A stretch of DNA of 32,154 bases from an uncultured Alphaproteobacteria bacterium (GTDB lineage: Bacteria; Pseudomonadota; Alphaproteobacteria; CADEGL01). The stretch spans positions 1 through 32,154 of the forward strand of contig CADEGL010000018.1 of assembly GCA_902826885.1 (NCBI GenBank). The letters run 5' to 3'. Positions 6,837-27,620 of the stretch are shown in pieces. The notes beneath the pieces were generated by a model, which was not told where the DNA came from, did not search any database, and was given only the letters and a program-made list of their open reading frames with translations. A program made the position numbers and the translations under genes. Numbering within the stretch: position 1 is the stretch's first letter; each line of letters starts with the position of its first letter.

Positions 6837-7557
6837 AAGGCGTTTGCTTCACCTGCGCGTTCATGGACAGGAGGAGGGGCTGCGCCGTGAAGAGCGCGCG
6901 CAATGCATCCAAGCCAAACAGCGGATCGCGCGGGGCCAGCGCGTCGTAAACACGACAAGCCAATGCGTAATCGTCTCGTGTATCCACGACTAGCCGCCAG
7001 TGACGCAGATCTGGCCGGTGGTCGAGATAAAGCGCGGGATAGCGTTCTGGCCGGCGCCACAAGAACGGCGTGACATGCTCGCGCTCATAGGGATCGGCCG
7101 CTTCCGCATCGGCCTCACGCAAGGCCTTCATGCTCGTTACTTGAGTGTCGAAACCCAAGGGATAGCCGGATTCCATATCGTTGGATGCGTACGCCACGCC
7201 GCTCGCGCGAAATGCGGCCAGGATGGCGCCGCTGACTTCCGGATCGAGAAACGGACAGTCGGAGGTCAGGCGCATCACGATCTCGGCGCCATGGGCTTCC
7301 GCCGCCATCACCGTGCGCTTCAGCACGTCTTGCTCCGAGCCTCGCGTCACCGGCGTATCCAAGCCGCGGCACAAGACCGCGACCGGTTCGTGCGCGTCAC
7401 CTTCGGGAATCGCCACGATGACCTTGTCGATGCCGCGGATCGCGCGCGCGCGTTCAATCACGCGCGTCAGGATCGGTTTGCCGGCCAACGGCATCAGGAT
7501 TTTGCCTGGCAGCCGGCTCGAGGTCATGCGTGCCTGGATGACAGCGACGGCGGTCAC
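6814..7557 (-). CDS. SpsF-type cytidylyltransferase, probable CMP-pseudaminic acid synthase
   Basis: A 247-residue SpsF/KdsB-like nucleotidyltransferase. IQARMTSSRLPGK near the N-terminus is the nucleotide-binding signature, and RLTSDCPFLDPE at about 100-111 is the conserved metal-site region. The start is taken as GTG at 7557, forming a GTGA overlap with pseI. An ATG at 7581 would add eight residues inside pseI and lose the overlap. It follows pseI directly, and no separate PseF is visible in the Pse block, so it most likely makes CMP-pseudaminic acid from Pse and CTP. SpsF proteins partner NeuB-like SpsE in spore-coat loci, which supports the role. The family is clear; the exact substrate is inferred from position. 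Confidence 0.85.
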   Translation of the reverse strand: MTAVAVIQARMTSSRLPGKILMPLAGKPILTRVIERARAIRGIDKVIVAIPEGDAHEPVAVLCRGLDTPVTRGSEQDVLKRTVMAAEAHGAEIVMRLTSDCPFLDPEVSGAILAAFRASGVAYASNDMESGYPLGFDTQVTSMKALREADAEAADPYEREHVTPFLWRRPERYPALYLDHRPDLRHWRLVVDTRDDYALACRVYDALAPRDPLFGLDALRALFTAQPLLLSMNAQVKQTPYEGLPRA

Positions 7558-8619: not shown

Positions 8620-10080
8620 TCAATGGGGCCGGCTCACATACCAGGGCCCGTCCGGCGCGTAGCCCGCGCGGGTGAACAGCGCCCGCGACGTGTCATTGCC
8701 AGGCAAGATTTGGGCGAGGAGCGGCGCCTCGGGCACAAGCCGCCGTGCCAGCGCCAGTGCCGCGCGCCCGAGGCCGATGCCGTGCCGCGCCGCGTCGATG
8801 CCGATCGATACTTCCCACCCGGCGCCGTCGCGGCGGTCGAGGCGGATGGTGCCCGCAGGGTCGTCGCCATGAAGGACGATGTTGTAGAGGCAATCAGGGT
8901 GGATGCGTCGCGCGGCGAACCAGGCGCGATGTTCTTCCCGCGTCGGCACGCGGGCATCTCGCGCGAAGCGGCGGGTTTCCGGCTGCACCTGCCAACCGAA
9001 CGTCACGGCTTCATCGTCCGCCGTCACCGGGCGCAGTCTGACGGGTGCGCCGTCCTTGGCGTGCTCCGGATCGATCCATGCGGCGATGCGCGCCGCGCCG
9101 CGCCCATCGCAGAGGGATGCGGCGACGGCGGCCATGGCCCGTTGCGCCGGGCGATCCTCGAGCAACGCGAGCGCCTGGTAGGCGGCATCCTTGCCGCCGG
9201 TTGCGATGCGGGTCGCGCCGGCTTTGGCCAAGGAGGCGGCGACCAGGCGCTGGTTGTCCGCGATCACGACCAGGATCGAAGGCAGACCCAGGCAACAGCG
9301 TTCCAGCGCGCTCACGCCGCCCGCGCCGATGGCGATGTCGGATGCGGCCAGAAGCGAGACCATGTCCGGCGCGTCCAGATGAAGCTGAAACCGATCGGGC
9401 ATAGCGGAGATGCGGGCGGTCACGCGGGCCGCGTGGCGCGCGCCATGGCCCAGGACCACGTCGATATGGAGATCGTCAGGCAAGCTCATATTCGAAAGTG
9501 CCGCCAGCACGGAACCGGTCTCGTCGTCCGGGTCGGTGCCGCCGAAATTGATCAACATCCTGCGATGATCGCGTGGATGCGTCGTGCGCCGCGCGCGCAT
9601 GATGGCGAACTCGGGCCGCAAGGGCGCGTAGGCCGGTCCGAGCAGAAGATCGGCATGCGCGGGCACATGGGCCGCATAGTCGCCCGCATTTCGGCCCGCC
9701 GTCGCATCCATCAGCGCATCGCAGTCGTGATCCCGGTCGGCCAAATCGTCGATCGCCAGGACGTGCCGCGCAAATTTCCGCGCCGCCGATTCATACGCGC
9801 GATCCAAGCCGTAGTGGTCCACAACCAGAAGATCACATCCTTCGGGCGCCGAGCGGCGCAACTCTTCCGCGTCGCGAAGGGCCGAGGGTTTCAAAGCCCG
9901 CGTTTCAAAGCCGCCAGCGATCAATTCGGGAACCACCGTCAGGCTTTCCTCACCGACCGCGAAGCGGCAGGTCCAGCCGTCGCGCTTGAGAGCGGCGGCC
10001 ACGGACAGGCAGCGCCGCACATGGCCGCTGCCGATCGCGGCCGAGGCATCCGCGCGGAACAGCGCCAGTTTGGATCGCAC
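8620..10080 (-). CDS. pseG: Bifunctional PseG-PseH fusion (UDP-sugar hydrolase plus N-acetyltransferase)
   Basis: A 486-residue fusion of two Pse-pathway enzymes. Residues 1 to about 340 form PseG, a GT-B-fold hydrolase that releases UDP from UDP-2,4-diacetamido-trideoxy-altrose. The N-terminal loop RADASAAIGSGHVRRC lies at 9-24 and AIGAGGVSALERC at about 250-262. Residues from about 346 to the end form a GNAT domain with the acetyl-CoA loop RHGIGLGRA at about 432-440, matching PseH, which N-acetylates the 4-amino group just before PseG acts. The start is taken as GTG at 10080, with GAGAAAG about 7 bases upstream; a TTG one codon earlier is possible. No separate pseH is visible, supporting the fusion as the source of both activities. 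Confidence 0.9.
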   Translation of the reverse strand: MRSKLALFRADASAAIGSGHVRRCLSVAAALKRDGWTCRFAVGEESLTVVPELIAGGFETRALKPSALRDAEELRRSAPEGCDLLVVDHYGLDRAYESAARKFARHVLAIDDLADRDHDCDALMDATAGRNAGDYAAHVPAHADLLLGPAYAPLRPEFAIMRARRTTHPRDHRRMLINFGGTDPDDETGSVLAALSNMSLPDDLHIDVVLGHGARHAARVTARISAMPDRFQLHLDAPDMVSLLAASDIAIGAGGVSALERCCLGLPSILVVIADNQRLVAASLAKAGATRIATGGKDAAYQALALLEDRPAQRAMAAVAASLCDGRGAARIAAWIDPEHAKDGAPVRLRPVTADDEAVTFGWQVQPETRRFARDARVPTREEHRAWFAARRIHPDCLYNIVLHGDDPAGTIRLDRRDGAGWEVSIGIDAARHGIGLGRAALALARRLVPEAPLLAQILPGNDTSRALFTRAGYAPDGPWYVSRPH

Positions 10081-10092
10081 CAATCGGCTTTC

Positions 10093-11538
10093 TCAGGGCT
10101 TGGCCGCAGGCAGCATGCCGCAACGCTCCAGCGACGCCACGATCTTATCGGCCATGATCGCGTTGCCGCGGCCCAATAGATGCGATGTGTCCTCATAGAC
10201 CCTTTCCGTCACGCCGGTGAAGGCGCCGGTCAAATCCACGAAGCATGTCATCTTGTGGTCGGGGAATTTCTCACCCATTCCGTCGAGCATGGCGCCGGCC
10301 TTCGCGAAATAGGCCAGGCGCGCGTCGATCTCGCGCTTGCTCATGCTCTTGTACATGCGCGCTTCCGTCCCGGCCGCCAGCGGCTTGTCGGGCGAGGCCA
10401 TCATGGGCGGCATGACGAAGAGAACGGGGATGCGAAACTCTTCCGCCGTGGCCGCCATCAACCGGGCACCGGTGTGATAGGTCTCGACCGCCGCATCGAT
10501 ATACGAATCGTCCGTGGGGTCTTCGGCAACCGAGGCCTCGCCGATCTTGGTTTCGCGCCCCGTCAGGTGGCGGAACAGATTGCCCGCTTTTTCCGATCCC
10601 TTCTCAATCACATAGCTGATGGCCAGTTCGTCCAAGAAATAGCGAACCTGGCTGACCAGGCTGCCGATGAAATCGGACAGCGAGCCGAGGACCGTGTAGC
10701 TGCCGTTCAAGCGCTCTTGGTAGTCGCGATGCTTGTCTAAACGGAAGGAGGTGAAGACGCGGCCTTGCTGATCGTAGATCTGTTTGGCGCGGCGGAAATC
10801 CACGGCGCCGCCATAGGAGATGATCAGGTCCGGCTCGTACGCCAAGAGGTCGGTGATCAGGTAAAGGTATTCCTGCGCCGAGCCATATGCGCCGACGCCC
10901 GCGTTGATCACCTCGAGCTTGTCGCGCCCCGGCGGCAGAGCGCCCTTGAGGCGCGCATCGAGCGCGTAAAACACCTTTGAAGGCAGGTTATCGAGCGGCG
11001 TTTCCGCACCGTCACCCTCGACCGTCGAGCCGCCGGTGACGATGACGCGATAGACGTTCGCGGGTTTTGGCTTCTCGTAGAAATACTCCAGCGATCCCGC
11101 GGCGGCGAAGCCCTGCTTGTTGGTCATGCGCCAGCCCACCAGGTCCCACACCTCGTTGGGCTGTTTCAGCATCGAGGTGTTGGGGCGCAGGCGCCAGCCC
11201 AGGATCGGATCGGCGATATGCCAGTGGGCCGAGGCCCACAGCGCGTCCTTGGTGCCGATATAGTCGATGCCAGGCACCTTGCGGGCGGGATTGTCGAACA
11301 GAATCGGCGAGAGCGTGTACCGGGTCAGCAGGAACTTATCGAGGAACTGCGCCGACTGGACGCCGCGCGTGCCGTACCAGATGAAGACGATGCCCAGGCT
11401 GACGATCTCAGCCGCGAGAACAATCGCGAGCAGGCGCAGAAGGATACGCCGCCAGTTGCGCGGTTTCCGTTTCGAACGCCAGTTCTGGAACATGGCTTCG
11501 AAGCGGTTGTTTTCCAGTTCGGGACGATGGTCGCTCAT
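10093..11538 (-). CDS. Membrane-anchored SGNH/GDSL hydrolase-like protein
   Basis: A 481-residue protein with a basic cytoplasmic N-terminus, one membrane segment at about 32-54 and a long extracytoplasmic domain. Residues 169-175 read GGSTVEG, the block I serine motif of SGNH esterases, and EDTSHLLGRGN at 449-459 supplies the DxxH of block V. It follows the MBOAT gene with a 7-bp gap; a second SGNH gene lies just upstream of the MBOAT. This arrangement is like AlgI with AlgJ/AlgX-type partners, in which the MBOAT passes acetyl groups across the membrane and the SGNH protein places them on glycan. Acetyl transfer is inferred; esterase action is the alternative. The ATG at 11538 is the only reasonable start. 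Confidence 0.85.
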   Translation of the reverse strand: MSDHRPELENNRFEAMFQNWRSKRKPRNWRRILLRLLAIVLAAEIVSLGIVFIWYGTRGVQSAQFLDKFLLTRYTLSPILFDNPARKVPGIDYIGTKDALWASAHWHIADPILGWRLRPNTSMLKQPNEVWDLVGWRMTNKQGFAAAGSLEYFYEKPKPANVYRVIVTGGSTVEGDGAETPLDNLPSKVFYALDARLKGALPPGRDKLEVINAGVGAYGSAQEYLYLITDLLAYEPDLIISYGGAVDFRRAKQIYDQQGRVFTSFRLDKHRDYQERLNGSYTVLGSLSDFIGSLVSQVRYFLDELAISYVIEKGSEKAGNLFRHLTGRETKIGEASVAEDPTDDSYIDAAVETYHTGARLMAATAEEFRIPVLFVMPPMMASPDKPLAAGTEARMYKSMSKREIDARLAYFAKAGAMLDGMGEKFPDHKMTCFVDLTGAFTGVTERVYEDTSHLLGRGNAIMADKIVASLERCGMLPAAKP

Positions 11539-11545
11539 GTGCGGC

Positions 11546-12931
11546 TCAGAACTCGAAGTAGATGAACGCGGCGGAGGAGCCGGTGCTGATGGTGATGGCC
11601 AGGGCCCACATGGCGGCGATGGCGGGCCAGACCACGGGCTTGGGCAAGCGCCGCGCCGCTGCCTTCACCAGGCGGTTGTCGTCGTAGCGGCACAGGGCGA
11701 TGAAGGCGGCGAAGAGGAAGAGCGGATAGGCCTGGGCAGCCGCGAAGCTGTTGACGTCACCCCAACTCTGAACGAACGGCGCGGCCAGCACCTTGGTGGC
11801 CGTGGAAAAGTCGGGCGAGCGAAAGAAGACCCAGGCCAAGGTGACGAAGTGAAAGGTCAGCAGCAGCCCGAGCCAGCCCGGCAGGCGGAAACCCGGTGCT
11901 ACGCGGCGAATCGCATGGCCCACGGCCACGCCCGCGCCGTGCAACGCGCCCCAAACCACAAAGGTCCAATTGGCGCCGTGCCATAGACCGCCCAGCACCA
12001 TGGTCACCAGGATGGCGCCGATCTGGCGCGGGAAGCCGCGCCGATTGCCGCCGAGGGGGATATAGAGATAGTCGCGCAGCCAATGAGACAGGGTGATATG
12101 CCAGCGGTGCCAGAAATCGACAATTGAGCGCGCGAGATAAGGCCGCGAGAAGTTGTTGGGCAGATAGACGCCGAGCAACAGGGCCGAGCCGATGGCCATG
12201 TCGGTGTAACCGCTGAAGTCGCAGTAGATTTGCAGCGAAAATCCGTACATGGCGAACAGATTCTCGAGCCCGGTATGCGCCGTCGGATCGGCGAAGATCG
12301 GCGAGATCGCATGCGAGATCGGGTCGGCGAAGACCAGCTTCTTGACCAGGCCGACGGAGAAGATGGCCAGCGCCGGCAGGATGCGGCGGCGCGCGAAGCT
12401 TCGAAGACGGTCGAGCTGAGGAATCAGCTCGTGCGGGCGCAAGATCGGACCCGCGATCAGATGCGGGAAGAAGATCACATAGGCCGCCAGCATTTGCACC
12501 CGTTCCTCGATGCGAAAGCGGCGCGCGAATACGTCCACCACATAGGCGATCAGGGTGAAGGTGACGAAGGAGATGCCGAGCGGTAGTGGCAGGTTCAGAA
12601 TCTTGATCGATGTGTCGGTTTCGCCGATCGAGAGGCGATAGAGGAAATCCGTGTACTTGAAGAAGATGAGGGGCAGGAGCAACGCGACGACGGTCGCGAT
12701 CATGCGCCGCTTGCGGCCGGCTTCGTTCTGCGCCCGGTCCATCCATAGTGCGCCGCCATAGGCCATCAGCATCAGAAGATGCGGCACGGGCGTGTAGATC
12801 GGCTCCCAGTAGCTATAGAAGATCGTGCCGCCCACGATGACGACAAGCAGCCGAAACCGTTGCGGGACCAGGAAATGGACCAGCAGGTAGACGGCGAAGA
12901 AGCCGAAATAGACGGGTGAGCTGAACAGCAC
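11546..12931 (-). CDS. MBOAT-family membrane O-acyltransferase (AlgI-like)
   Basis: A 461-residue polytopic membrane protein of the AlgI/DltB/PatA group. The diagnostic blocks are DFWHRWHITLSHWLRDYLY at 272-290 and GLWHGANWTFVVWG at 315-328, whose His318 is the expected catalytic histidine. Hydrophobic segments occur along nearly the whole length. Its role would be moving acetyl groups from cytoplasmic acetyl-CoA across the inner membrane for O-acetylation of a surface glycan. It begins with GTG at 12931 and has no clear Shine-Dalgarno sequence; a perfect 8-bp hairpin lies 15-33 bases upstream. SGNH genes on both sides are the probable partners. The module splits the Pse genes between pseC and pseG-pseH, so Pse or a Pse-containing glycan is the likely target. 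Confidence 0.92.
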   Translation of the reverse strand: MLFSSPVYFGFFAVYLLVHFLVPQRFRLLVVIVGGTIFYSYWEPIYTPVPHLLMLMAYGGALWMDRAQNEAGRKRRMIATVVALLLPLIFFKYTDFLYRLSIGETDTSIKILNLPLPLGISFVTFTLIAYVVDVFARRFRIEERVQMLAAYVIFFPHLIAGPILRPHELIPQLDRLRSFARRRILPALAIFSVGLVKKLVFADPISHAISPIFADPTAHTGLENLFAMYGFSLQIYCDFSGYTDMAIGSALLLGVYLPNNFSRPYLARSIVDFWHRWHITLSHWLRDYLYIPLGGNRRGFPRQIGAILVTMVLGGLWHGANWTFVVWGALHGAGVAVGHAIRRVAPGFRLPGWLGLLLTFHFVTLAWVFFRSPDFSTATKVLAAPFVQSWGDVNSFAAAQAYPLFLFAAFIALCRYDDNRLVKAAARRLPKPVVWPAIAAMWALAITISTGSSAAFIYFEF

Positions 12932-12945
12932 GTCGGTTTATGGGA

Positions 12946-12964
12946 CGAAGCGGTTTCCGCTTCG
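12946..12964 (-). other. Intercistronic hairpin between SGNH and MBOAT genes
   Basis: A perfect inverted repeat CGAAGCGG-TTT-CCGCTTCG (+ strand) lies in the 35-bp gap between the SGNH stop (12967) and the MBOAT GTG (12931). It begins three bases after the stop in the transcribed direction. The bases that follow are not T-rich, so it does not look like a normal intrinsic terminator. It could be a processing or stability element, or could limit ribosome access to the MBOAT start. Confidence 0.65.
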
Positions 12965-12966
12965 GA

Positions 12967-13935
12967 TCACGGATCTTTCAGGGCCGGATAGAGCGTGTCG
13001 GCCATGAGCTTGTGACCATGGGCGTTCGGATGCGGATCGCCCGGCATGGCCCAGATGCCGGTGGGGTCTTCGTGCTCGAAGGGCGGGTAGAGGTCGATGA
13101 AGGTGAAGCCGCGTTCGGCCGCGACCTGCGCCATCCGCTCGTGAATGTAGAGGAATGGGTAGTTGGTCAGCTGGTGTATGTCGGGCGTGATGGCCAGATA
13201 GACGCGGATGTGATGCGCGCCGGCATAGGCCTTGATGCGATCAAGGCCGGCCAGCATCTGCTTGTAACCCGGAGCGTTGGGATCGTAGACGGCGCGGTAG
13301 TGCGATTCCAGGTTGCCCATGCCGGTTTGGCCGAACAGGCGGTTGGCCGCGATCCATAAGGTCACGGCCAACTGGCTGTGACGCAAAATCCAGCTTCCGC
13401 CGCCTGCTGGCAGGATTTCGGCATCGTTGATGAAATAGTTGATGACGATGTCGGTCGGCTCCAGCTGGGTCAGCCGCTTCAGGAATAGCTCGCTATAGCG
13501 GGTGGTGTTGTAATTGCCGATGCCGGCGTTCAGCACCTGGACGTTCATGCCGTCCTTGCGGAATTTCTCCTCGATCAGAGCGGTCATGGTCTGGTCTTCG
13601 GGCACGCCCCATCCGAGCGTGATGGAACTGCCGAGGAACAGGATGCGGCGTTCGCCCGGCGCCAGAGGCTGCACCGGTCCGCCGCGCAGTCCGTATTCAT
13701 TGGTGCGGATGTCGACATTCTGGAGATGGGCGCTCGCGTTCGGCCGGTGTTCGTGGCCCATGAGCGGATCGTCGCTCTGCCGCTTGAGCGTGTTGGCGTA
13801 TTTCCACATCTCGATGTCGTAGTTCGTACCCGCGGAATTCTTCACGCGCAGGATCAATTCCGCGGCCGCCAGCGAGACGACCAGTGAAATGATCACGGCG
13901 ATCACGGAGAACAGGATGGTGCGGCCTTTGGTCAT
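12967..13935 (-). CDS. Membrane-anchored SGNH/GDSL hydrolase-like protein
   Basis: A 322-residue protein with a membrane anchor at about 7-27 and an extracytoplasmic SGNH domain. LFLGSSITLGWG at 99-110 is block I, with Ser104 as the likely nucleophile. NAGIGNYN at about 136-143 is a block II-like glycine segment, and GDPHPNAHGH at 299-308 supplies the acidic residue and catalytic histidine of block V. It is shorter than the SGNH protein on the other side of the MBOAT, so the two are probably not redundant; one may transfer and the other remove or relay acetyl groups. Its ATG overlaps the pseC stop as ATGA. Function in glycan O-acetylation is inferred from the neighbouring MBOAT. Confidence 0.85.
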   Translation of the reverse strand: MTKGRTILFSVIAVIISLVVSLAAAELILRVKNSAGTNYDIEMWKYANTLKRQSDDPLMGHEHRPNASAHLQNVDIRTNEYGLRGGPVQPLAPGERRILFLGSSITLGWGVPEDQTMTALIEEKFRKDGMNVQVLNAGIGNYNTTRYSELFLKRLTQLEPTDIVINYFINDAEILPAGGGSWILRHSQLAVTLWIAANRLFGQTGMGNLESHYRAVYDPNAPGYKQMLAGLDRIKAYAGAHHIRVYLAITPDIHQLTNYPFLYIHERMAQVAAERGFTFIDLYPPFEHEDPTGIWAMPGDPHPNAHGHKLMADTLYPALKDP

Positions 13936-16199: not shown

Positions 16200-18029
16200 T
16201 CAAAGCCCGCCTGCCGCTGTGCGCGGCGCGGGACTGCCGTGGGTTTGTTTCGCGTGAGCCTGGGCATACCAGCCTCCGCGCTGAATCAGCTGATCGTGCG
16301 TGCCCCAATCCTCGACCCGTCCTTCGCGCAGGACGATGATGCGGTCTGCGCGTGCGATCGTGGAAAGACGGTGGGCGATGACGATGATCGTCTTATCGGT
16401 GGCCTCGCGGATATGGAACATCGCCGTGCGGAAATTCTCTTCCGCCTCGGCGTCCAGATTGCTGGTGGGTTCGTCCAGGATCAAGACGGGTGCATTGCGC
16501 ACGAGCGCACGCGCCAGATCCAACCGATGACGCTGCCCGCCGGACAGGCGAATGCCGTCTTCGCCTACGTAAGTGTCGTACCCCTCGGGCAGCGCCGTGA
16601 TGAAATCATGCGCGCCCGCCAGATTCGCGGCCGCCTCGATCTCCGTGTCCGTGGCCCCCGGTTTGCCGTAGCCGATATGCTCGCGCACCGTGACATCGAA
16701 GATCTGCGCGCGCTGAGGCGCATAGCTGATGCCCTGGCGCAGGCTCGGGCGCTCGAATGCCTCGATCGGCACGCCGTCGAACGTCAATTTGCCAGAGTCG
16801 GATTCGCGTAGGCGCAGAAGCATGTCGACCAGCGTGGATTTCCCCGCGCCGGACGGGCCGACCAGAGCCACCAGACGGTGCGCCGGGATCTCGGCATCGA
16901 CGCCGTTCAACGCCGGTGCCGAGCCCGCCGGGTAGCGGAAGACCACGTTTTCGAAGCGGATGCCTTGCTCCAGGTGCTCCAGCATGCGGCCTCCGCCGCG
17001 GGTCTCGCGCGCATCGCCCATGGCCTGCAACCGTTGTTCGAGCGCGCTCAGATGAGGCAGCGAGCCGATCATGCTCTGATACTGCCGCAGCGCTTCCTTC
17101 ACGGTCGGCAGTAGGCGGATCGCCACCACCAGAAGAACGCCAAACTCACCCAAGGTCACGCCCAGCATCGTGTAGCCGACATAGACCATCACCAGCATGA
17201 TCCCGATCGCGATAGGCTCGTAGAGGACGTCGCCGCGCGCGAGAAGAACGCGGGTCCGGATCATGCTGTCGCACTGGCTTTCGGAAAGCTTGCGCTCCAG
17301 CGCCATTTCCGCCTGTTCGGTGCCGGCCAGCCGGATCAGGCGCGGCGAATCCAGCCGCTGCACCAAGAAGGTCGAAAGGCTGCGATTGTCCCTCATCAAC
17401 TGTGCACCGCTTTGCACGGTTTTGCGGAAGACGCCGGCGAGAAAGACGCCCGAAATGGCCATGATGAGAAGGGCCAAGACAACGGCGGGGCCCGAGACGA
17501 TCATCAGAAGAGCAAACAGGACGCAGACCACGACCACATAGCAAGCGATCTGCGGCGGGCTGAACATCGCGTCGATCGCGTATTTGAGCTCGGTGGTCAG
17601 CGAGTTGACCATGGCGCCCACGGTTTCGGCGTCTTGATAGTTCGCGTCGGCGTGCAGATATCGCTGAAAGCCGTCGTTGCGCACGTCGCGGCCGATCTGC
17701 TCGCGCCGGGTGATCATGTAGCTTTGCCGGATATAGAAGACGACCTGGCGCATCAGAAAGGCGAAGAACATCAGGGCCAGCAGCGAGGCGAACCCCAGGG
17801 GGACGCCGAGTGCATCGTAGATCTGGACCAGATAGGTCCAAAGCCGGCTGCTCGAAGCCAGGCGCGTGACGTCACCGCCAGCTTCCATGTACTGGAAGAC
17901 CGGCAGAAACATGCCGATGCCGATGCCTTCGAAAACCGTACTCAGACCCTGCAGCCCGATGATGCCGAGCCAAACGGGGCCGCTGAGACCCATCCGGCGG
18001 GAAATTCGGAAGTATTCGCGAATCGTCAC
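16200..18029 (-). CDS. ABC exporter, fused membrane and ATPase domains (PglK/MsbA-like)
   Basis: A 609-residue half-transporter. The membrane domain covers about 1-330 with hydrophobic segments near 20-45, 80-100, 160-200 and 270-305. The ATPase domain has Walker A GPSGAGKST at 391-399, signature LSGGQRHRLDLA at 495-506 and Walker B VLILDEPTSNLD at 515-526, all intact. It should work as a homodimer in the inner membrane. PglK-type exporters flip lipid-linked oligosaccharides in N-glycosylation and some O-antigen systems, and no Wzx is visible in the window, so it is the best flippase candidate here. Lipid or peptide export cannot be excluded. It begins with GTG at 18029 in a GTGA overlap with the PtmE-like gene and separates the Leg half of the operon from the Pse half. 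Confidence 0.87.
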   Translation of the reverse strand: MTIREYFRISRRMGLSGPVWLGIIGLQGLSTVFEGIGIGMFLPVFQYMEAGGDVTRLASSSRLWTYLVQIYDALGVPLGFASLLALMFFAFLMRQVVFYIRQSYMITRREQIGRDVRNDGFQRYLHADANYQDAETVGAMVNSLTTELKYAIDAMFSPPQIACYVVVVCVLFALLMIVSGPAVVLALLIMAISGVFLAGVFRKTVQSGAQLMRDNRSLSTFLVQRLDSPRLIRLAGTEQAEMALERKLSESQCDSMIRTRVLLARGDVLYEPIAIGIMLVMVYVGYTMLGVTLGEFGVLLVVAIRLLPTVKEALRQYQSMIGSLPHLSALEQRLQAMGDARETRGGGRMLEHLEQGIRFENVVFRYPAGSAPALNGVDAEIPAHRLVALVGPSGAGKSTLVDMLLRLRESDSGKLTFDGVPIEAFERPSLRQGISYAPQRAQIFDVTVREHIGYGKPGATDTEIEAAANLAGAHDFITALPEGYDTYVGEDGIRLSGGQRHRLDLARALVRNAPVLILDEPTSNLDAEAEENFRTAMFHIREATDKTIIVIAHRLSTIARADRIIVLREGRVEDWGTHDQLIQRGGWYAQAHAKQTHGSPAPRTAAGGL

Positions 18030-19075: not shown

Positions 19076-19771
19076 TTATTCGATCACCGTGCCCGTCAGG
19101 CCGCATGCGTCGGCCGCTTGGGCCATCTTCCAGTCGTCTTCATCGTCGATGTCGAGCGCGGCCACGTCGTTCATCACCAGCGGCAAGGTCCGCGCCGGAA
19201 ACAGCGAGCCCGTCCGCCGCAGCGCCTCTGTCCGCACCAGGTAAAGCGCGCCGTTCGGCGTGAGCAAGACGTGTGGCTCGCTCTCGTCGGATAAAGGCGC
19301 GGCATAACCGTCCCGGCCGAGCGAGAAGAGGTGACGCGGCGCGCGGTCGATGCGCGCCATGGCGACGACGGCCTCCGCATCCGGGCGAGCGTCGAGTTTC
19401 GCCAACGCCTTGGCGATGCAGGCGCCATCGCGAAAGGGCGAAGTGACCTGCAGAACCATGACGGATGCCGGGTCCTGTCCCCGCGATTCCTTGAACCAGT
19501 CGACGGCGTGCAGAACGACGGGCGCGGTAGCCGCTTCATCATGGGACAATGTCGCGGGGCGTAAGAATGGCACCAGCCAGCCCAGAGCGGCGCCCGCCGC
19601 GGCGATCTCTTCGTCGTCGGTCGAAAGAACGCAGGTTGCTTGCGCGCCCGATCCCCGCAAGGCGTCGGCGGTGCGCGCCAGCAGGCTACGGCGGCCCAGG
19701 GTGCGCAGGTTCTTGCCCGGCAGGCGCTTCGATCCACCGCGTGCCGGCACGACGACGAGAAGCCCGCTCAC
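19076..19771 (-). CDS. neuA: NeuA-type CMP-nonulosonate cytidylyltransferase (probable CMP-Leg synthase)
   Basis: A 231-residue cytidylyltransferase whose N-terminal VVVPARGGSKRLPGKN (positions 6-21) is the CTP-binding signature of NeuA, LegF and PtmB. VLQVTSPFRDGACI at about 124-137 is the conserved LQPTSP-type motif, and MNDVAALDIDDEDDW near the C-terminus is also typical. The start is GTG at 19771, overlapping the preceding gene as GTGA; an ATG 30 bases upstream would lie inside that gene. As the Leg half of the operon lies upstream and the Pse block has its own SpsF-type enzyme, CMP-legionaminic acid is the likely product. Sialic acid activation is less likely because of the accompanying LegC. 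Confidence 0.87.
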   Translation of the reverse strand: MSGLLVVVPARGGSKRLPGKNLRTLGRRSLLARTADALRGSGAQATCVLSTDDEEIAAAGAALGWLVPFLRPATLSHDEAATAPVVLHAVDWFKESRGQDPASVMVLQVTSPFRDGACIAKALAKLDARPDAEAVVAMARIDRAPRHLFSLGRDGYAAPLSDESEPHVLLTPNGALYLVRTEALRRTGSLFPARTLPLVMNDVAALDIDDEDDWKMAQAADACGLTGTVIE

Positions 19772-20598
19772 GTCAGTCTCGCCCGCGCGTTTTTGGCCCA
19801 ATTCCCGAAACCCAACCGGAATGCGCGAAAGGCCGAAACATGTGTCGGGTCCGCGCGGAACGGGTCCATGTGCTCGGCCTTGGTCAGGTTCGAGGGATCG
19901 TCGAAATCATGCTTGACCGTATAAGCGATCACCCGATTCGTACCCGTGATCTGTATCGAGCCGCTCCACGCACTCTCGCCGGGCGCCAGCAGCGCCTCCA
20001 GCGCCAGACGTTTCGCCGACTGGGCCGGGACGCGCGTGCGCGGCAGTGATCTGCCGTCGCTCGTGCGCAGCTCGGTCAGGATGGGCATCTTGTAAGGGTT
20101 GACGAAAATGACGCTTTCTCCGAGCCCTTTGACCCGATCGATCCGGACGACAGGATAACCGTCCAGGTAATGGCCGAACTCGGCGATCTGGGCGATCACG
20201 CGCGGCTCGCCGAACTTGTACTGCACGCAGGTGAAGAAAGACTTCCGGCCGGGCGCGAAATACGCGGCATACTGCGCTGGTACTTCGGTGCCAACGAAAT
20301 CGGGCGTGTGGTCATGCGTCTCGGCGGCAAATTCGAGATACCCTCCGTCTACATCCCAGTCCGGCGTGGGCGGCCAGACGAATGTGCCCGGCGCGGCGCC
20401 GGCCAGATGCCCATTTTCAAAATGCAGATCGTCGATCCGTTCGTGCGCCAAGCGTTCCTGACGCCAGACCCGCCAGCTTAACGCGATACGGCCGCTGCCG
20501 CGCCGCAGGGTCGCGCCGAGAGCGTCCATGGGCACCGTCAGCGCGCAGCCGTAGCCGCCGGGCAGCCAACAGATTTTCGGCGGCAAGTACGCTTTCAC
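19768..20598 (-). CDS. Unrecognised protein, probably beta-rich
   Basis: A 276-residue protein I do not recognise. It is rich in aromatic residues and short alternating hydrophobic stretches, suggesting beta strands. There is no clear signal peptide or membrane segment. The start is GTG at 20598, overlapping the BFD-domain gene stop as GTGA, and its own stop overlaps neuA as GTGA, so it is embedded in the Leg-pathway part of the operon. Striking segments are KICWLPGGYGCAL at 8-20 with two cysteines, TPDWDVDGGYLEF near 85-97 and AYTVKHDFDDPSN near 223-235, rich in Asp and His and possibly metal-binding. The C-terminal half has a loose pattern similarity to the end of the neighbouring BFD-domain protein. 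No function is proposed beyond glycan-related. Confidence 0.75.
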   Translation of the reverse strand: MKAYLPPKICWLPGGYGCALTVPMDALGATLRRGSGRIALSWRVWRQERLAHERIDDLHFENGHLAGAAPGTFVWPPTPDWDVDGGYLEFAAETHDHTPDFVGTEVPAQYAAYFAPGRKSFFTCVQYKFGEPRVIAQIAEFGHYLDGYPVVRIDRVKGLGESVIFVNPYKMPILTELRTSDGRSLPRTRVPAQSAKRLALEALLAPGESAWSGSIQITGTNRVIAYTVKHDFDDPSNLTKAEHMDPFRADPTHVSAFRAFRLGFGNWAKNARARLT

Positions 20599-21524
20599 AG
20601 ATGATCCAGGGCGATCCGGTCGAGCGTCGGCGATGCGGTCATGACGTGAACCTTGCCGCGACCGCGGCCGCGATAGCGATAGGTAAGGGGCTGTCCGGGT
20701 TTGGCGTGCTTGGCCGAGGGTTCGATCACGCGCGCGCCGAAAGGCGGAACTTCGATACGCATCGGGGCGGTCGTCTCCTCGGCGAAGTCGAATTCGAGAA
20801 ACAGCGGGCGCGCAGCCACGTTTACCGCGGTGAACAGGATGCGCGTCTCGCCCGGAGCGTGGATCGCGGTCAGCCAGGCCCGGGGGTCTGGAGCCGCGCC
20901 CTGTATGTGCAACGTCGTGTTGCTGCGGGCGGCCTCCACCTCGAAATGCGGGCGGGTCGTTCCACGCACGCCGGGCGAAAGGCCCCAGCGGGATATCTCG
21001 ACGCTGCCGACCGACAGCGCCTCGCCGGACGGCGCCCCCGAGAACGTGATGGCTTTGCTTTCGCCGCAACCGACGTCATGGCGCTCGCGCCCGCTCACGC
21101 GGCCTTCGCCGTCGCGAACGGTCAGCACGAACCGGTGGGGCGGCACGCCGACTTTCTTGCCGAGCACCATCGGCTGGTTGACCAGCCACAGACGCTCCAC
21201 GATGCCGCGCCCGGACAAGAGCGGAATGGTGTTGGTGAGCCGGAACGGGATTTGCGGCGCGATGCGGTCGAGGACGTCGTATATGCGCCGCTTCAGCGGG
21301 CGCCGCTCCTGGCGCGCGACGTGGTGGCCAGCCGCCGATGTCCGGTCCTTTGGCGCGTTCACGAAAAGATATTCCACGTCCAGAAGGCACGCCGTGCAGC
21401 GGCTTCCCGCGTGGGTTTCCTCGAGAAACCGCTCGAAGTTCGAACCCGAGGCGGCCTTCTCCAAGTTGCCGCGCGTCAAGTTGAAGCAACCGCAGACGAT
21501 CTCTTGCCTGTTGTCTTCCGGCAT
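20595..21524 (-). CDS. Unrecognised protein with N-terminal BFD-like [2Fe-2S] motif
   Basis: A 309-residue protein. Residues 9-50 contain CGC at 11-13 and CTAC at 43-46, a CxC-x29-CxxC pattern close to the [2Fe-2S] site of bacterioferritin-associated ferredoxin-like (BFD) domains, where spacing is usually about 31-34. The remaining 250 residues look beta-rich and match no family I know; segments include RFVLTVRDGEGRV and MRIEVPPFGARVIEP. The start is the ATG at 21524, 11 bp after the amidotransferase stop; an earlier in-frame start would overlap that gene. Its stop overlaps the next unknown gene as GTGA. Possible roles are an iron-sulfur scaffold, electron transfer to an unknown sugar-modifying step or a zinc-binding mimic. 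The cluster type is inferred from spacing only. Confidence 0.78.
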   Translation of the reverse strand: MPEDNRQEIVCGCFNLTRGNLEKAASGSNFERFLEETHAGSRCTACLLDVEYLFVNAPKDRTSAAGHHVARQERRPLKRRIYDVLDRIAPQIPFRLTNTIPLLSGRGIVERLWLVNQPMVLGKKVGVPPHRFVLTVRDGEGRVSGRERHDVGCGESKAITFSGAPSGEALSVGSVEISRWGLSPGVRGTTRPHFEVEAARSNTTLHIQGAAPDPRAWLTAIHAPGETRILFTAVNVAARPLFLEFDFAEETTAPMRIEVPPFGARVIEPSAKHAKPGQPLTYRYRGRGRGKVHVMTASPTLDRIALDHL

Positions 21525-21535
21525 GGTCCGCGCCG

Positions 21536-22798
21536 TCAGTCCACCTTGTGCCGCAACTCCCATCCGTTGGCGCCCTTGCGCCATAGATGGGGTGAGCGGA
21601 AACGGTCGGCGGTTTCGAAGAACTCGGTTTCGTCCATATCGAGATAGGCCAGAAACTCCTTGAGGAATTTGCGCGGCACCTCGCCGTCATAGCGGCGCAC
21701 CAACGCCACGCCTTCCTCGCGGGTGATGTGGTGGTTGCGGATTTCCTGACTGGCGTCGTAGGTCGAGCGGCCCAAGCCGAACTTTATGAATGTCGTCCAG
21801 TAGTGATAGCCGTCGGTCTTGTCGTCGATGGAGTTGTACTTGGAATAGGTGCCTTCGGTGCGCTCGGTGTTGGCCTGAAAGCCCGCGTGCTCGACGGAAT
21901 AGTAGTAACACTCCTGCGGAGTCCATTTGAGGTAGTAACCCAGGTAATGCACCTGGATTTCCGCCTTCGCCAATTCCTCCGCATCGGCCGGCATATAGGG
22001 TTCCATGCGGCCGACTTCGATGCCGTGGGCCGGCAGTTCCTGCAGCGGAACGCCGCCGAAATACATCTGGGCGTTTGCCGCGCGGATGCGGGCGTAATAG
22101 GACGCGTCGCGCTGCGCCTGCTTGTTCTCCGTGATCGGGTTCCCGTACTCCGCTTCGTTCTCGCCGTAGAACACGAGCGGGATATTCATGCGCAAGGCCA
22201 TCTTGGGCGCATAGTTCTTCTGGCCAAGGATGAAAGGTTGAAACGGGTGCAGCAGGTTCTTGTAAGCCAAGGCCGTCAACTTGCGATGCACCTGGCCGTC
22301 GGGATGGAACAGGAAATTGTCGAACCCGGCCTTGTGCACCCAGCCTTGGAAATTGTGCCAGCCCACGTCGGTGTACAAATGCGGCGCCCACGTCACCGTC
22401 AGCGGATGCATGCCGTACTTCGCCTTCAGGACGTGCGAGGCATAGACGGAATCCTTGCCGCCCGAGCCCGGCACCAGACAGTCGTAGGAGCCGTTGCGCG
22501 AACGGTAGCGATCGCAGACTTCCTGCAACTCGCGTTCGCGCGCCTCCCAATCGACAAGCGTGTCCTTCATGCGCGCGTAGAGGCACGCATCGCAAATGCC
22601 CTCTTCATTGAGCGCCAAAGTCGTCTTCTTGGAATTGGCATGATGCTCAAACTCCACGGCCGACGCCGGCCGCTGGTTCGACATGACGCAGCTCTTGCAG
22701 AACCTCACGTTTCCCGGCAGCCCGTACTTGATCTCCAGCGGGCCTTCCTTCGGGTCCATCAGGTACGTCTTGCCGTCCTTCTCGATCGTATCGGCCAT
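21536..22798 (-). CDS. N-acetyl sugar amidotransferase (PseA/WbpG family)
   Basis: A 420-residue PP-loop ATPase. CKSC at 34-37 and CDAC at 69-72 form a probable zinc site, and PGSGGKDS at 110-117 is the PP-loop. This matches the WbpG/PseA family, which converts an N-acetyl group on a sugar into an N-acetamidino group using ammonia. The two genes just upstream encode HisH- and HisF-like proteins, the known ammonia-supplying partners of this family. The start is ATG at 22798 with GAGAG upstream, 10 bp after the HisH stop. It may act on Leg or Pse; its place within the Leg half and before neuA favours Leg, as with PtmG of Campylobacter, but this is inference. Downstream lies the BFD-domain gene. 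Confidence 0.92.
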   Translation of the reverse strand: MADTIEKDGKTYLMDPKEGPLEIKYGLPGNVRFCKSCVMSNQRPASAVEFEHHANSKKTTLALNEEGICDACLYARMKDTLVDWEARERELQEVCDRYRSRNGSYDCLVPGSGGKDSVYASHVLKAKYGMHPLTVTWAPHLYTDVGWHNFQGWVHKAGFDNFLFHPDGQVHRKLTALAYKNLLHPFQPFILGQKNYAPKMALRMNIPLVFYGENEAEYGNPITENKQAQRDASYYARIRAANAQMYFGGVPLQELPAHGIEVGRMEPYMPADAEELAKAEIQVHYLGYYLKWTPQECYYYSVEHAGFQANTERTEGTYSKYNSIDDKTDGYHYWTTFIKFGLGRSTYDASQEIRNHHITREEGVALVRRYDGEVPRKFLKEFLAYLDMDETEFFETADRFRSPHLWRKGANGWELRHKVD

Positions 22799-23429: not shown

Positions 23430-24187
23430 GTCCGCACCGCGACGCCTTGATCCGCCAGGTAAGACTTCAATGCGGGAACCGGAGCGGTGCCGTAATGAAA
23501 GATGCTGGCACAGGCGACCGCGTCGATCGTGCCTGTCGCGACCAGCGACCGGACATGCTCGGGCGTTCCGGCGCCGCCGCAGGCGATCACCGGGATGCGC
23601 ACCCGCTCGTGAACCGCGCCGATCAGCGCGGAATCGAAGCCGCTCTTGGTGCCTTCCTGATCGACCGATGTGACCAGGATCTCTCCCGCGCCCAGCCGTT
23701 CCGCTTCCACCACCCAGTCCAGGACATCGATCCCGGTGGTCTCGCGGCCGTTATCGGTCAAGGCTTCCCATTTTCCGGGCGCGCGCCGTTTGGCCTCGAC
23801 CGAAAGGACGATGCATTGCGAGCCCAGCGCCTCGGCCGCTTCCTTGAGGAAGGCGGGCCGCGCGATGGCCGCGGTGTTGATGGCCACCTTGTCGGCGCCG
23901 CTGCGCAGCGCCGCGACGATATCGTCCAACGAACGGATGCCGCCGCCGACGGTCAATGGCACGAACACGTCACGCGCGGCTTCCTCGACCACCGCAAGGA
24001 TGTTGTTGCGGCCGTAGAGCGAGGCCACGATGTCCATGTAGACAATCTCGTCCACGCCCTGTTCGTAATAACGCCGCGCCAGTTCGCCGGGCTTGCCCAC
24101 GACGCGCAGCCCTTCCAGGTGAACGCCTTTCACGACGTTGGGACCTTTGATGTCCAGGCGCGCGATGATACGGACCGGCGGCTTCAT
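23426..24187 (-). CDS. hisF: HisF-like cyclase subunit, ammonia channel for sugar amidination
   Basis: A 253-residue TIM-barrel protein of HisF length. RLDIKGPNVVKG at 10-21 keeps the first catalytic Asp (Asp12), and TSVDQEGTKSG at 173-183 is conserved. The second catalytic Asp of true HisF, in a motif such as VAIDAKR, is Glu131 here (LSVEAKRR, 128-135), and the KDG after the first Asp is KGP. These changes suggest loss of imidazole-glycerol-phosphate synthesis with the ammonia tunnel retained. Start is ATG at 24187, overlapping the previous gene as ATGA. With HisH and the PP-loop enzyme it should form a dedicated amidination complex. Confidence 0.9.
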   Translation of the reverse strand: MKPPVRIIARLDIKGPNVVKGVHLEGLRVVGKPGELARRYYEQGVDEIVYMDIVASLYGRNNILAVVEEAARDVFVPLTVGGGIRSLDDIVAALRSGADKVAINTAAIARPAFLKEAAEALGSQCIVLSVEAKRRAPGKWEALTDNGRETTGIDVLDWVVEAERLGAGEILVTSVDQEGTKSGFDSALIGAVHERVRIPVIACGGAGTPEHVRSLVATGTIDAVACASIFHYGTAPVPALKSYLADQGVAVRT

Positions 24188-25662
24188 GCGGCGGCATTCT
24201 TGGCTTCGGTCAAGCTGTCGATCAGAGACCGATACGCGCTGTCGATGGCAACGTCCTCGATCTCGGCCGGCCGGAGGAAATTGTAGCCGCGCAGGTCGAA
24301 GGAGGTGGCGACGACAGCCTCCAGGAACCGCTGGCCGTCGGCCTTCGCTTTCTCGACGTCGATTCCGCCATCCAAAAGCCGGGACAATGTCGGCTTCAGT
24401 TCGGACAAATGCTCGATGACGGAGACGTGGGGTATGGCGTTGTAGAGATTGTGCCGGCCGAACGCGATGACAGGCTTGCCCATCACGGCCGCCTCGAAAC
24501 CGGCCGTGCCCGTGATCGTGAGCGTCACGTCGGCGGCACGCACGACATCGAGGCCAAGCTCCAACATGTCCATCATCACGACGTTCTTGAAGCCCATGAT
24601 CTGGTCGTAAAAGTCGACCGGACGGCGGCCGAGCGACCAGAACGTCTCCTTGACCACGAGCAATACGCCTGCCGGCAAATCCCGTGCGATCGCCGCGATG
24701 GTCTCGAGCTGGAAGAAATACTCGGGCGAAAGAGCCTGCAGCGACTGCTCGGGCTCGGTCTGCAAGGGATAGAATACGAATCGTTTGCCGGAGAGATCGG
24801 ACAGCTTCGCAAGGCCGGTCAGCCGCCTGGCGTCGCGCCACTTGCGGACCGCGTAGCCAAGCTCCTCGGTGAGATAATACCCTTTCCGCTTCTCGTACCG
24901 GCGCAGATGCCAATATGCCCGGCGCGCCGTCAGGTGGGCGAGCTGCTTGACCAGGCCCAGGGTGTTCGCATCCCGGATGAAATCCTGCCGCGGCTTGGCG
25001 TGGCCGTCGTAGGGACGCTCGATCGAACGAGCCGGCACGGAGCGCGCGCCGATTTCCCGATAGGCCGCGGCCAGGCGCTTGCTTTCGAACAGCAGATTTT
25101 CCGCCCAGTAATGATAGCCGAGATACCGCGCGGTCCCGATCGTCCGGTATGGGATTCCCATGACACGGGCGACCGTTCCTGGAACCGTGCCGCCCATAAG
25201 CATCAGGTCGGGCCGCTTTTCCTCGATCTGGTTTCGCCAGAACGAGATGGCCGTGTTGTAAGCGTGGAGAATCCGGGTCAGGTCGGCGTGTTCCGACAAG
25301 CGCGAACGGGGGTGGCGCGCGCCGCCCAGGGCGAAGCCGCGGCCGAAATGCCGATCGCCCAGGATCAATTCATTGTAGTGGAGGCCGAGCCAGCGCTCGT
25401 GGCTCTGGGCCTGCCGAAGTACCTCTTCGGGGGCCGGCGGTTCTCCGCGCGCCGCCGGGTAGAGAATGTTGGCGTCGGTGATCGACCGGAACAGGCCAGC
25501 CTCGCCCTTCCCGCGATAGAAAGCGCTTTCCTGGGGTGTGAAGCAGTAGAGGTCTATTTCCGCGCGGGCTTCCTGTTTCAGCCGCCGCGCGAGCGCGAGA
25601 AGCAGGAACCGGTACTCGGCGTCGGCGCACATCATTACGCGAAGGCGGGGATTTTCGGTCAT
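24184..25662 (-). CDS. Capsule-synthesis-like protein, possible glycosyltransferase
   Basis: A 492-residue protein resembling the capsule polysaccharide biosynthesis family. VFYPLQTEPEQS at 296-307 and TITGTAGFEAAVMGKPVIAFG at 382-402 match the typical layout, in which a nucleotide-sugar half-domain recognises the donor. Between them the family usually has KEHP; here it is KETF at 338-341, so the HP motif seems lost. The N-terminal part has LMGGTVPG near 155-162. It starts at ATG 25662, 6 bp after the stop of the AAC(3)-like gene, and overlaps hisF as ATGA. No membrane segment is evident. It may transfer a nonulosonic acid or another sugar, or may be a non-catalytic relative; the motif change makes the activity uncertain. 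Confidence 0.8.
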   Translation of the reverse strand: MTENPRLRVMMCADAEYRFLLLALARRLKQEARAEIDLYCFTPQESAFYRGKGEAGLFRSITDANILYPAARGEPPAPEEVLRQAQSHERWLGLHYNELILGDRHFGRGFALGGARHPRSRLSEHADLTRILHAYNTAISFWRNQIEEKRPDLMLMGGTVPGTVARVMGIPYRTIGTARYLGYHYWAENLLFESKRLAAAYREIGARSVPARSIERPYDGHAKPRQDFIRDANTLGLVKQLAHLTARRAYWHLRRYEKRKGYYLTEELGYAVRKWRDARRLTGLAKLSDLSGKRFVFYPLQTEPEQSLQALSPEYFFQLETIAAIARDLPAGVLLVVKETFWSLGRRPVDFYDQIMGFKNVVMMDMLELGLDVVRAADVTLTITGTAGFEAAVMGKPVIAFGRHNLYNAIPHVSVIEHLSELKPTLSRLLDGGIDVEKAKADGQRFLEAVVATSFDLRGYNFLRPAEIEDVAIDSAYRSLIDSLTEAKNAAA

Positions 25663-25668
25663 GGATGG

Positions 25669-26448
25669 TTACCGGCGATGCTCGCGCCGCCAATCGACGA
25701 GCGCGCGGACGGCGGGGGCGGCGTCGAAGAGGATCGTACGCGCGGCTCCCACGCGGCCTTGCCGCGCCAGGCCGCTCGATAGGAGGAACGCAAGCCCATC
25801 TTCGAACCAATCGATCGGATACTCGATGTCCTCATAGGCGGCCCATTGCGTCTTTCCGTCCGCCAGGATCGGCGCGCTCTTCTTCAGCCGGGTATTCCAG
25901 CCGACCAGGTGCTGAGTCAGATGGAAGAGGGACGCCGTATCGTTCGGGGCGCCCATCAGCAGGACACGACCGCCGAGATCGACAAGGTGCCCCAACGGCC
26001 CGTTGGGCCCGAACCGATCATGAAGAGGGTGAGCGCCGACGAGGCGCGCCGCCTTCGCGCCCACGGCCGAGAACGACGATTGCGGGTGAGCGCTTCGAAG
26101 GGCTTCGGGCCAATGGCGGAACAGCTCCGCCACCGTTCCCATGCCCCGCGTCGGAGTCCGGCGCGGGTCGTAGGCGGGTGTAGAACGGCGAATTTCGTCA
26201 TGCCATGCGGCCGGCACGGGCGGGTGGCGCCACTCGGCCGGGTCCGAGAGGTCGCCCGAAAAGGACGGCATCATCACGGTGCCCGTGGGCCCGACCGCTT
26301 CGAGAAGCCCCTCGATCACCGCGCGCGCACCGCCGACCGTGAAGCCGAGGCTTTTGAGGGAGCTGTGGACGCAAAGAATGTCGCCCGTGGCGACTCCCAA
26401 TGTTCCCAGATCCGCGGCGATGGACCGCCAAGTGGTCAGGCTGTCCAC
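25669..26448 (-). CDS. AAC(3)-family N-acyltransferase
   Basis: A protein of 259 residues if it starts at GTG 26448; the family is usually about 260-280 residues. CVHSSLKSLG near residues 26-35 is the CoA-binding signature of aminoglycoside 3-N-acetyltransferases, and RSAHPQSSFSAVG followed by GPNGPLGHL is the typical active-site region with conserved His. AAC(3) relatives occur in glycan clusters, and one role is N-acylation of an amino sugar. Here it could acylate an amino group of Leg or of a precursor. Drug resistance is not supported by context. The start overlaps the legG stop by 13 bp; a CTG nearer the stop is a less likely alternative. Confidence 0.82.
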   Translation of the reverse strand: MDSLTTWRSIAADLGTLGVATGDILCVHSSLKSLGFTVGGARAVIEGLLEAVGPTGTVMMPSFSGDLSDPAEWRHPPVPAAWHDEIRRSTPAYDPRRTPTRGMGTVAELFRHWPEALRSAHPQSSFSAVGAKAARLVGAHPLHDRFGPNGPLGHLVDLGGRVLLMGAPNDTASLFHLTQHLVGWNTRLKKSAPILADGKTQWAAYEDIEYPIDWFEDGLAFLLSSGLARQGRVGAARTILFDAAPAVRALVDWRREHRR

Positions 26449-27620
26449 GCGCGCTCGCGTCGCTGGGCCGGGGCGCCGTTCCACGGCGCGGTAAATCGCG
26501 CGTCGTCCGCGGCGAAGCATTTGTAGAGAAGGCGCCGCGCCTCGTGCGCCTCGGTTACGGCCTCGGCCACGCGCGGCGCGGCATGGCCGTCGCCGTAGGG
26601 GCATGACGGCGCCATTCGCTCCGGCACCGTGCGCAGCAGGCGCTCCACCGCGCCCGCGTCGGCGGGACAGTCGCGGACGTTCGCGCCGCGCTGGCGTCCG
26701 TCCTGCCGTTTACCCACATTGACGACGGGCAGGCCGAAGAGACCGGCCTCGATCACACCGCTGGAGGAATTGCCGACCATGACGGCGGCATGGCGCAGGG
26801 CGTTGGCATACAGCGATGCGCCCAGCGTGTCGCGGAACGCGGCGCGGCCGTGCCGGGCCAGAAAAGCGTCGATGCGCGTCCGCGCTTCGGCGCCGCCGGG
26901 ATCGGCGTTGGGCGCGGTGACCAGCGAAGGGCCCGGCGTCGCCTCCAATGCCGCCAGCACGGCGTCCACGGTCGCCAGCGGATCGGCGGCGTTGGTTTCG
27001 GGGTGGACGGTGACCAGGCGCAGGCCATCGATCGATTCCAGCCCGATCGCGCGGGCGAACGCGGCGCGGTCCATGGCCGGCGCCTCGACGAGGGAGTCCA
27101 GGCCCGGCGCGCCGGTAACCCGGATACGCCACGCTTCCTCGCCCATGCGCGCGATTCGCCCGGCGGCCTCCACGGTCGACGCACAATGCAGATGAGACAG
27201 CTTGGTGATGGCGTGGCGTGCCCGTTCGTCGCTCGCGCCATACGTCAGCTCGCCGCCATGCAGGTGAACGAGCGGAACGTTCAACGGCACAAGCCCCATG
27301 GCCACGGGCAGCATATCCAGCCGGTCCCCCATGAGAAGCGCGCGGCCGGGTTGAAGGCGGGCGCCCAGGCGGCCCGCCGCGTCGGCGATCCGCGCCATCG
27401 CCGCCGCCGCCGCCGGGCCGTCACCGCCGGCGATGTCGGCGCCCTCGGTGTGGCCGGTCGCGCTGGGCGGCAGGGCCGCGCGCACGGCGTTGTCGTCGGA
27501 GACGTGGGCGCCGGTGAACATCACGTGCAGATCGACGTCCGCGCGCGCGGCCAGGGCGCGCCATACCGGAGCCAGAATCCCCACATCCGCCCGCCCGCTG
27601 GAGACGCTGAGGATTCTCAT
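26436..27620 (-). CDS. legG: NeuC-like hydrolysing UDP/GDP-sugar 2-epimerase (LegG)
   Basis: A 394-residue GT-B-fold enzyme of NeuC/LegG type. LLMGDRLDML at 95-104, HLHGGELTYGASDERARHA at 119-137 and MVGNSSSGVIEAGLFGLP near 306-323 are the family signatures. LegG removes the nucleotide from the 2,4-diacetamido-trideoxy-glucose precursor and inverts C2, giving 2,4-diacetamido-2,4,6-trideoxymannose for the next enzyme. NeuC acting on UDP-GlcNAc is the alternative, but LegC and LegI in the same operon favour LegG. The start is ATG at 27620, overlapping legI as ATGA. Its C-terminus runs past the family core with an arginine-rich tail. Confidence 0.88.
   Translation of the reverse strand: MRILSVSSGRADVGILAPVWRALAARADVDLHVMFTGAHVSDDNAVRAALPPSATGHTEGADIAGGDGPAAAAAMARIADAAGRLGARLQPGRALLMGDRLDMLPVAMGLVPLNVPLVHLHGGELTYGASDERARHAITKLSHLHCASTVEAAGRIARMGEEAWRIRVTGAPGLDSLVEAPAMDRAAFARAIGLESIDGLRLVTVHPETNAADPLATVDAVLAALEATPGPSLVTAPNADPGGAEARTRIDAFLARHGRAAFRDTLGASLYANALRHAAVMVGNSSSGVIEAGLFGLPVVNVGKRQDGRQRGANVRDCPADAGAVERLLRTVPERMAPSCPYGDGHAAPRVAEAVTEAHEARRLLYKCFAADDARFTAPWNGAPAQRRERAWTA

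Follow-up and report, generated by a model that had tools for sequence, protein, structure and literature searches.

A predicted BFD-type iron-sulfur protein with ASRAH-like beta-sandwiches and its coupled partner in glycan loci of Alphaproteobacteria

The stretch of DNA analysed here, hereafter the window, comprises 32,154 nucleotides of contig CADEGL010000018.1 (assembly GCA_902826885.1) from an uncultured alphaproteobacterium of the GTDB lineage CADEGL01. It carries an operon with WbuX-HisH-HisF, NeuB, NeuC, NeuD, and LegC-like genes, a NeuA/PseF-like synthase, a PtmE-like nucleotidyltransferase, a one-chain ABC exporter, and a PseB/PseC/PseI block; the names NeuB, HisF, PtmE, and PseI are presumed, having been given partly from the sequence. 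An earlier note, made from the sequence alone, had described within this operon a 309-residue protein bearing a CxC-x29-CxxC motif, coupled by a GTGA overlap to a second frame and through another to neuA, the two genes lying between a PP-loop amidotransferase and a CMP-sugar synthase. Each of these features was recovered (Table 1): both overlaps are exact, the cysteines are arranged as C11-x-C13 ... C43-x-x-C46 with 29 residues between C13 and C43, the upstream neighbour matches TIGR03573, and the downstream neighbour is NeuA/PseF-like, its match to TIGR03584 (PseF; E 2e-35) lying under that family's cut-off. We refer to the two proteins as P0001 and P0002.

Table 1. Positions in the window of the paired genes, their predicted domains, and selected neighbours
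Feature	Position	Strand	Details
P0001, predicted BFD-ASRAH protein, 309 aa	20595..21524	(-)	ATG at 21524, TGA at 20595
P0002 (ORF2), second protein, 276 aa	19768..20598	(-)	GTG at 20598, TGA at 19768
GTGA overlap, P0001 stop / P0002 start	20595..20598	(-)	exact in sequence
GTGA overlap, P0002 stop / neuA-like gene start	19768..19771	(-)	exact in sequence
BFD-like [2Fe-2S] domain of P0001 (predicted), residues 9-54	21363..21500	(-)	Pfam PF04324, E 3.1e-6
First ASRAH-like beta-sandwich of P0001 (predicted), residues 92-208	20901..21251	(-)	AF2 strands, VIA-align
Second ASRAH-like beta-sandwich of P0001 (predicted), residues 209-309	20598..20900	(-)	AF2 strands, hhalign with ASRT profiles
P0002 C-terminal region, about residues 150-235	19894..20151	(-)	Asn167-Pro168 invariant; hhalign against second sandwich
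WbuX-type N-acetyl sugar amidotransferase (PP-loop)	21536..22798	(-)	NCBIfam TIGR03573, E 8e-109; upstream of P0001
CMP-sugar synthase (NeuA/PseF-like)	19076..19771	(-)	Pfam and NCBIfam; downstream of P0002
One-chain ABC exporter	16200..18029	(-)	Pfam; distance correlation with the pair r 0.71
Capsule_synth-family glycosyltransferase-like gene (GT)	24184..25662	(-)	PF05159, E 1.9e-6

Several other genes of the window and of related loci were recorded in the course of annotation. An aminoglycoside 3-N-acetyltransferase-like (Antibiotic_NAT) gene at 25669-26604 sits in the nonulosonate operon, is absent from a locus of the same genus (L013), and probably encodes a sugar N-acetyltransferase, not a resistance function. 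A 487-aa frame at 8620-10083 joins a PseG-like region to a C-terminal GNAT acetyltransferase domain and is possibly a PseG-PseH fusion, while a GDSL lipase gene and, named by eye, MBOAT-like and AlgJ-like genes lie between two sugar blocks at 10093-13935 and suggest glycan O-acetylation. The GT and hisF are separated in L013 by a CDP-alcohol phosphatidyltransferase gene (7073-8026) that is absent from the window, and in two AT-rich marine genomes by a PhyH-like dioxygenase and an FkbM-like methyltransferase, assigned by eye (L026, 4529-6453; L027, 4367-6306).

The tight coupling of the two genes that the overlaps had suggested extends to their relatives. Our searches yielded 19 distinct P0001/P0002 pairs including that of the window, one of the 18 others being interrupted by a run of N; the genes are adjacent and in the same order in 19/19 loci, with gaps of at most 25 bp except at the locus with the run of N. 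The two frames are not products of chance, since they are intact in 18 more pairs and Fer2_BFD scores above its gathering threshold in P0001. P0002 was found in 10 of the 385 genomes of the class, and single-sequence and profile searches gave the same 10, so that the family appears to be rare and sharply bounded. Among the genome contigs, the single-sequence search returned no match and the alignment search returned seven loci, four of them already in the set. Wherever the host of a pair could be checked it was an alphaproteobacterium; an apparent spread to Gammaproteobacteria (L027) was rejected, as the genome concerned (G773) falls in an alphaproteobacterial GTDB family. The plasmids and viral contigs that were searched held no relatives of the pair, and a profile of the whole of P0001 run across the phylum gave, besides G000, just BFD-domain matches in other, mostly long, proteins. 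When both proteins were scanned against Pfam, NCBIfam, and PADLOC, the BFD domain was the sole match, and in Pfam, NCBIfam, and the PDB taken together no characterised family was strongly matched by both proteins, which leaves standing the earlier description of the pair as unrecognised.

The BFD-like motif itself proved genuine, scoring above the Pfam threshold (Fer2_BFD, 27.9 bits vs a gathering score of 26) and recurring in 17 of the 18 aligned P0001 members (E<=5), with Cys11, Cys13, Cys43, and Cys46 invariant in 18/18 aligned homologues. By sequence, the P0001 profile matched a single kind of protein in the PDB, the solved bacterioferritin-associated ferredoxins (Bfd; E 0.009), with the cysteines in register. 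P0001 shares with BFD proteins (PF04324; bacterioferritin-associated ferredoxin, NirB/NasC, the central domain of NifU) the CxC...CxxC motif and its spacing, together with a helical fold in residues 1-56; unlike in the known members, the domain is fused to two beta-sandwiches and located in glycan operons, and no bacterioferritin, nitrite reductase, or cluster-assembly genes were seen among the neighbours of the pair. To judge from these sequence comparisons, the domain would bind a [2Fe-2S] cluster. The modest E-value of the match to solved Bfd would also suit cysteines that bind zinc or some other metal or act as a structural dimerisation knot, with no iron-sulfur role, but the motif and its surrounding residues are in register with Bfd and the Pfam BFD model matches 17/18 members, and we regard such a role as very unlikely.

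The beta-rich remainder of P0001, which the earlier note could not assign, instead appears to be a pair of ASRAH-like beta-sandwiches. An AlphaFold (AF2) model built from 18 sequences (mean pLDDT 81.2, pTM 0.72) consists of the helical BFD part, a weak linker (residues 61-73), and two eight-stranded beta-sandwiches. With VIA-align, the best solved match was 1nc7_B (T. maritima TM1070; Z 10.3, 99 aligned residues, rmsd 3.1), which aligns with the first sandwich (residues 92-210), and the runner-up fold was SIDT1 (Z 8.2); Foldseek searches of PDB and viral models gave generic sandwich matches only, at low TM. TM1070 belongs to the ASRT (Anabaena sensory rhodopsin transducer) family of the ASRAH superfamily, beta-sandwich proteins that are predicted to bind sugars, although such binding is unproven for most of the superfamily, and that occur as tetramers, dyads, or tetrads; their hallmark is a nearly invariant Asn ending strand 2, and a conserved Trp opens strand 1 (PMC2739507). 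The second sandwich was compared with ASRAH by strand count and by sequence profile, and in hhalign two ASRT profiles, made from PDB and plasmid records, matched it above permuted controls (P 1.9e-4 and 4.9e-5). The ASRT profile did not rise above controls against the first sandwich, whose match to ASRAH is one of modelled structure. An invariant Asn ends the second strand of each sandwich, Asn116 in the first (strand 109-117) and Asn235 in the second (strand 228-235), and Trp217, present in many but not all members, lies in the second sandwich and has no counterpart in the first. P0001 has in common with the ASRT/ASRAH proteins (2II7, 1NC7) the eight-stranded sandwich, the invariant Asn closing strand 2, the dyad arrangement, and a carbohydrate gene context, at an identity of just ~8-9%.

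For P0002, no Pfam, NCBIfam, or PADLOC family and no credible PDB relative by sequence was found, in keeping with its having been called unassigned, and a single-sequence AF2 model reached a pLDDT of only 32. When the second sandwich of P0001 was compared with the C-terminal half of P0002 in hhalign, the score of 30.7 (P 7.8e-5) exceeded the control maximum of 20.9, and over its full length P0002 was colinear with the sandwich region of P0001 (29.9 vs at most 28.8 in all 120 permuted controls); the first sandwich did not score above controls against the N-terminal half. A sandwich-1/sandwich-2 match of P0002 was discarded as an artefact of overlapping columns. These comparisons suggest that the C-terminal half of P0002 and the second sandwich of P0001 are probably related and that P0002 probably has the same architecture over its whole length. 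The ASRT profile did not match P0002 directly, and its link to ASRT/ASRAH runs solely through P0001. A basic C-terminus is present in 19/19 P0002 sequences, and hydropathy gave no transmembrane segment or signal peptide in either protein.

Both proteins are rich in invariant polar residues: R191, H206, Q208, and H308 (the last near the C-terminus), along with P192, across the 18 aligned P0001 sequences, and Y110, D154, R222, H230, and H243, along with N167-P168, across the 19 aligned P0002 sequences. Such conservation, in loci whose recurring neighbours are tailoring enzymes, would be expected if the pair were itself a glycan-active enzyme, either an Fe-S-dependent oxidoreductase or a modifying enzyme, with an active site of invariant His, Asn, Arg, and Gln. 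No catalytic fold was detected, though, the sandwiches resembling binding domains in VIA-align, and annotation of the neighbourhoods revealed no dedicated reductase or other redox partner; an enzymatic role is unlikely.

The gene neighbourhoods bear on the step that the pair might serve. The earlier note had proposed that the pair serves a step not yet described, whether redox, scaffold, or regulatory, that is linked to amidination (WbuX-HisH-HisF) or to CMP activation, and had suggested surveying whether the pair always occurs with the acetamidino system. WbuX adjoins the pair in the window, P0002 is coupled to neuA by its GTGA overlap, and the distribution of the pair with respect to WbuX is indeed non-random, WbuX being present in 9/10 pair-bearing genomes vs 71/375 others (Fisher p 4e-6, the genomes not being fully independent). 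The association is not obligate, however: the pair occurs without WbuX, HisH, or HisF in G166 (locus L014), a genome rated 100% complete, and 71 genomes carry WbuX and lack the pair. The WbuX/WbpG/PseA-HisH-HisF system is accordingly a frequent neighbour of the pair, but most genomes that have it lack the pair, and the pair also occurs without it. Nor is the pair confined to loci with a nonulosonate synthase, for in two phosphonate clusters (L017 and L091) no NeuB or PseI lies within ~9-10 kb on either side of it. Together with weak co-variation with WbuX, HisH, HisF, and NeuA, reported below, these occurrences count against the proposed coupling; the pair probably takes no part in amidination or CMP activation, and a step specific to either is a highly improbable account of its function.

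In the two phosphonate clusters, the pair and a methyltransferase are embedded (L017, 7479-13150; L091, 7152-12779) among genes for a PEP mutase-nucleotidyltransferase fusion and a phosphonopyruvate decarboxylase (Ppd)-like TPP enzyme (Pfam-tested in L017), a content that suggests a phosphonate-decorated glycan. Relatives of an Asn-synthase/GATase-like frame of the window (1519-3903) recur beside the pair in both clusters, together with the sulfotransferase (4346-5224 in the window). A SAM methyltransferase of a single family (~257 aa, with a basic N-terminal extension) directly adjoins the pair in 10 of the 19 loci (L012, L015, L016, L017, L019, L069, L086, L087, L090, and L091), the window not being among them.

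Pairwise distances between homologues were compared across loci, each correlation resting on 5-18 partly related loci. P0001 distances followed those of P0002 (r 0.91, permutation p 0.0005) and of the methyltransferase (r 0.92); among the window operon genes the highest value was that of the Capsule_synth-type GT (r 0.89, 8 loci), followed by PtmE (r 0.77) and the ABC exporter (r 0.71), with NeuA (0.43), HisH (0.41), WbuX (0.35), and HisF (0.30) below these. In a matched six-locus subset the GT kept r 0.8 and WbuX, HisF, and HisH dropped to 0.1-0.15; in one 5-locus subset the exporter fell to r 0.3 and PtmE to about 0. The distances of the pair thus follow the GT, ABC exporter, and methyltransferase, and not the amidination and CMP-activation genes. 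In the same-genus genome (L013), the flanking genes are 72-93% identical to those of the window, vs 34% for P0001, 39% for P0002, and 47% for the GT, and the pair has been relocated so that it adjoins the GT; on the basis of this divergence and relocation, we read the difference as glycan-specific cassette exchange.

A different kind of regulator is conceivable, in which the pair never touches the growing glycan and instead acts as a sugar and iron/redox sensor, ASRAH sensing a metabolite and BFD sensing Fe-S status, and tunes the enzymes of the locus allosterically. Known BFD proteins have clusters that are labile or redox-active, and hydropathy places the pair in the cytoplasm, both of which would suit a sensor, as would the proposal that solo ASRT-like proteins sense sugars and act through contacts with other proteins (PMC2739507). 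If sugar supply were what the pair regulates, however, it would be expected to follow the sugar-synthesis genes, whereas it follows the GT, ABC exporter, and methyltransferase and is found with very different chemistries, including phosphonate; we hold this account to be doubtful.

The reading that we tentatively favour, at somewhat less than an even chance, is that of a sugar-binding complex in the cytoplasm that carries an Fe-S cluster and serves as a subunit for glycan-specific recognition or regulation when the glycan is assembled, tailored, or exported. We infer that P0001, as a BFD-type [2Fe-2S] domain joined to two ASRAH-like beta-sandwiches, and P0002, as a sandwich-type partner, would form an obligate cytoplasmic pair supplying up to four ASRAH-like units, like an ASRAH tetrad or tetramer, and that this complex would bind the product of the locus, a sugar or a lipid-linked glycan. 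It would act at the step of the GT, the adjacent methyltransferase, or the ABC exporter, and its cluster would be a structural element or a redox/iron-status switch, not a catalyst of nonulosonate synthesis. The Wzt C-terminal domain, the carbohydrate-binding subunit of an ABC glycan exporter, offers an analogue, in that it reads a glycan with a beta-sandwich close to a methyltransferase and an ABC exporter, as is proposed for the pair; the comparison is an analogy only, and unlike that domain the pair consists of separate soluble proteins with an Fe-S domain.

The BFD and ASRAH domain types are both already known. The open-access literature that was searched yielded no account of their combination, of the partner protein, or of the operon setting; no paper there joined an Fe-S domain to ASRAH, and terms for such a domain are absent from the ASRAH study itself (PMC2739507). 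A more ambitious version of the favoured reading, which we consider a speculative minority prospect, is a hitherto undescribed redox- or iron-gated machine, which would recognise a particular surface glycan within the cell and let it proceed to tailoring or export as the redox or iron state dictates; the composition of such a machine from a [2Fe-2S]-sandwich fusion, its sandwich-type partner, and in many cases a dedicated methyltransferase is put forward with equal reserve. To our knowledge, no Fe-S protein has been established in Leg/Pse-type glycan assembly. For ASRAH, whose sugar binding is predicted, the operon lets a candidate ligand be guessed, and if the gated machine is real, some bacteria would couple the finishing of their surface glycans to iron or redox state.
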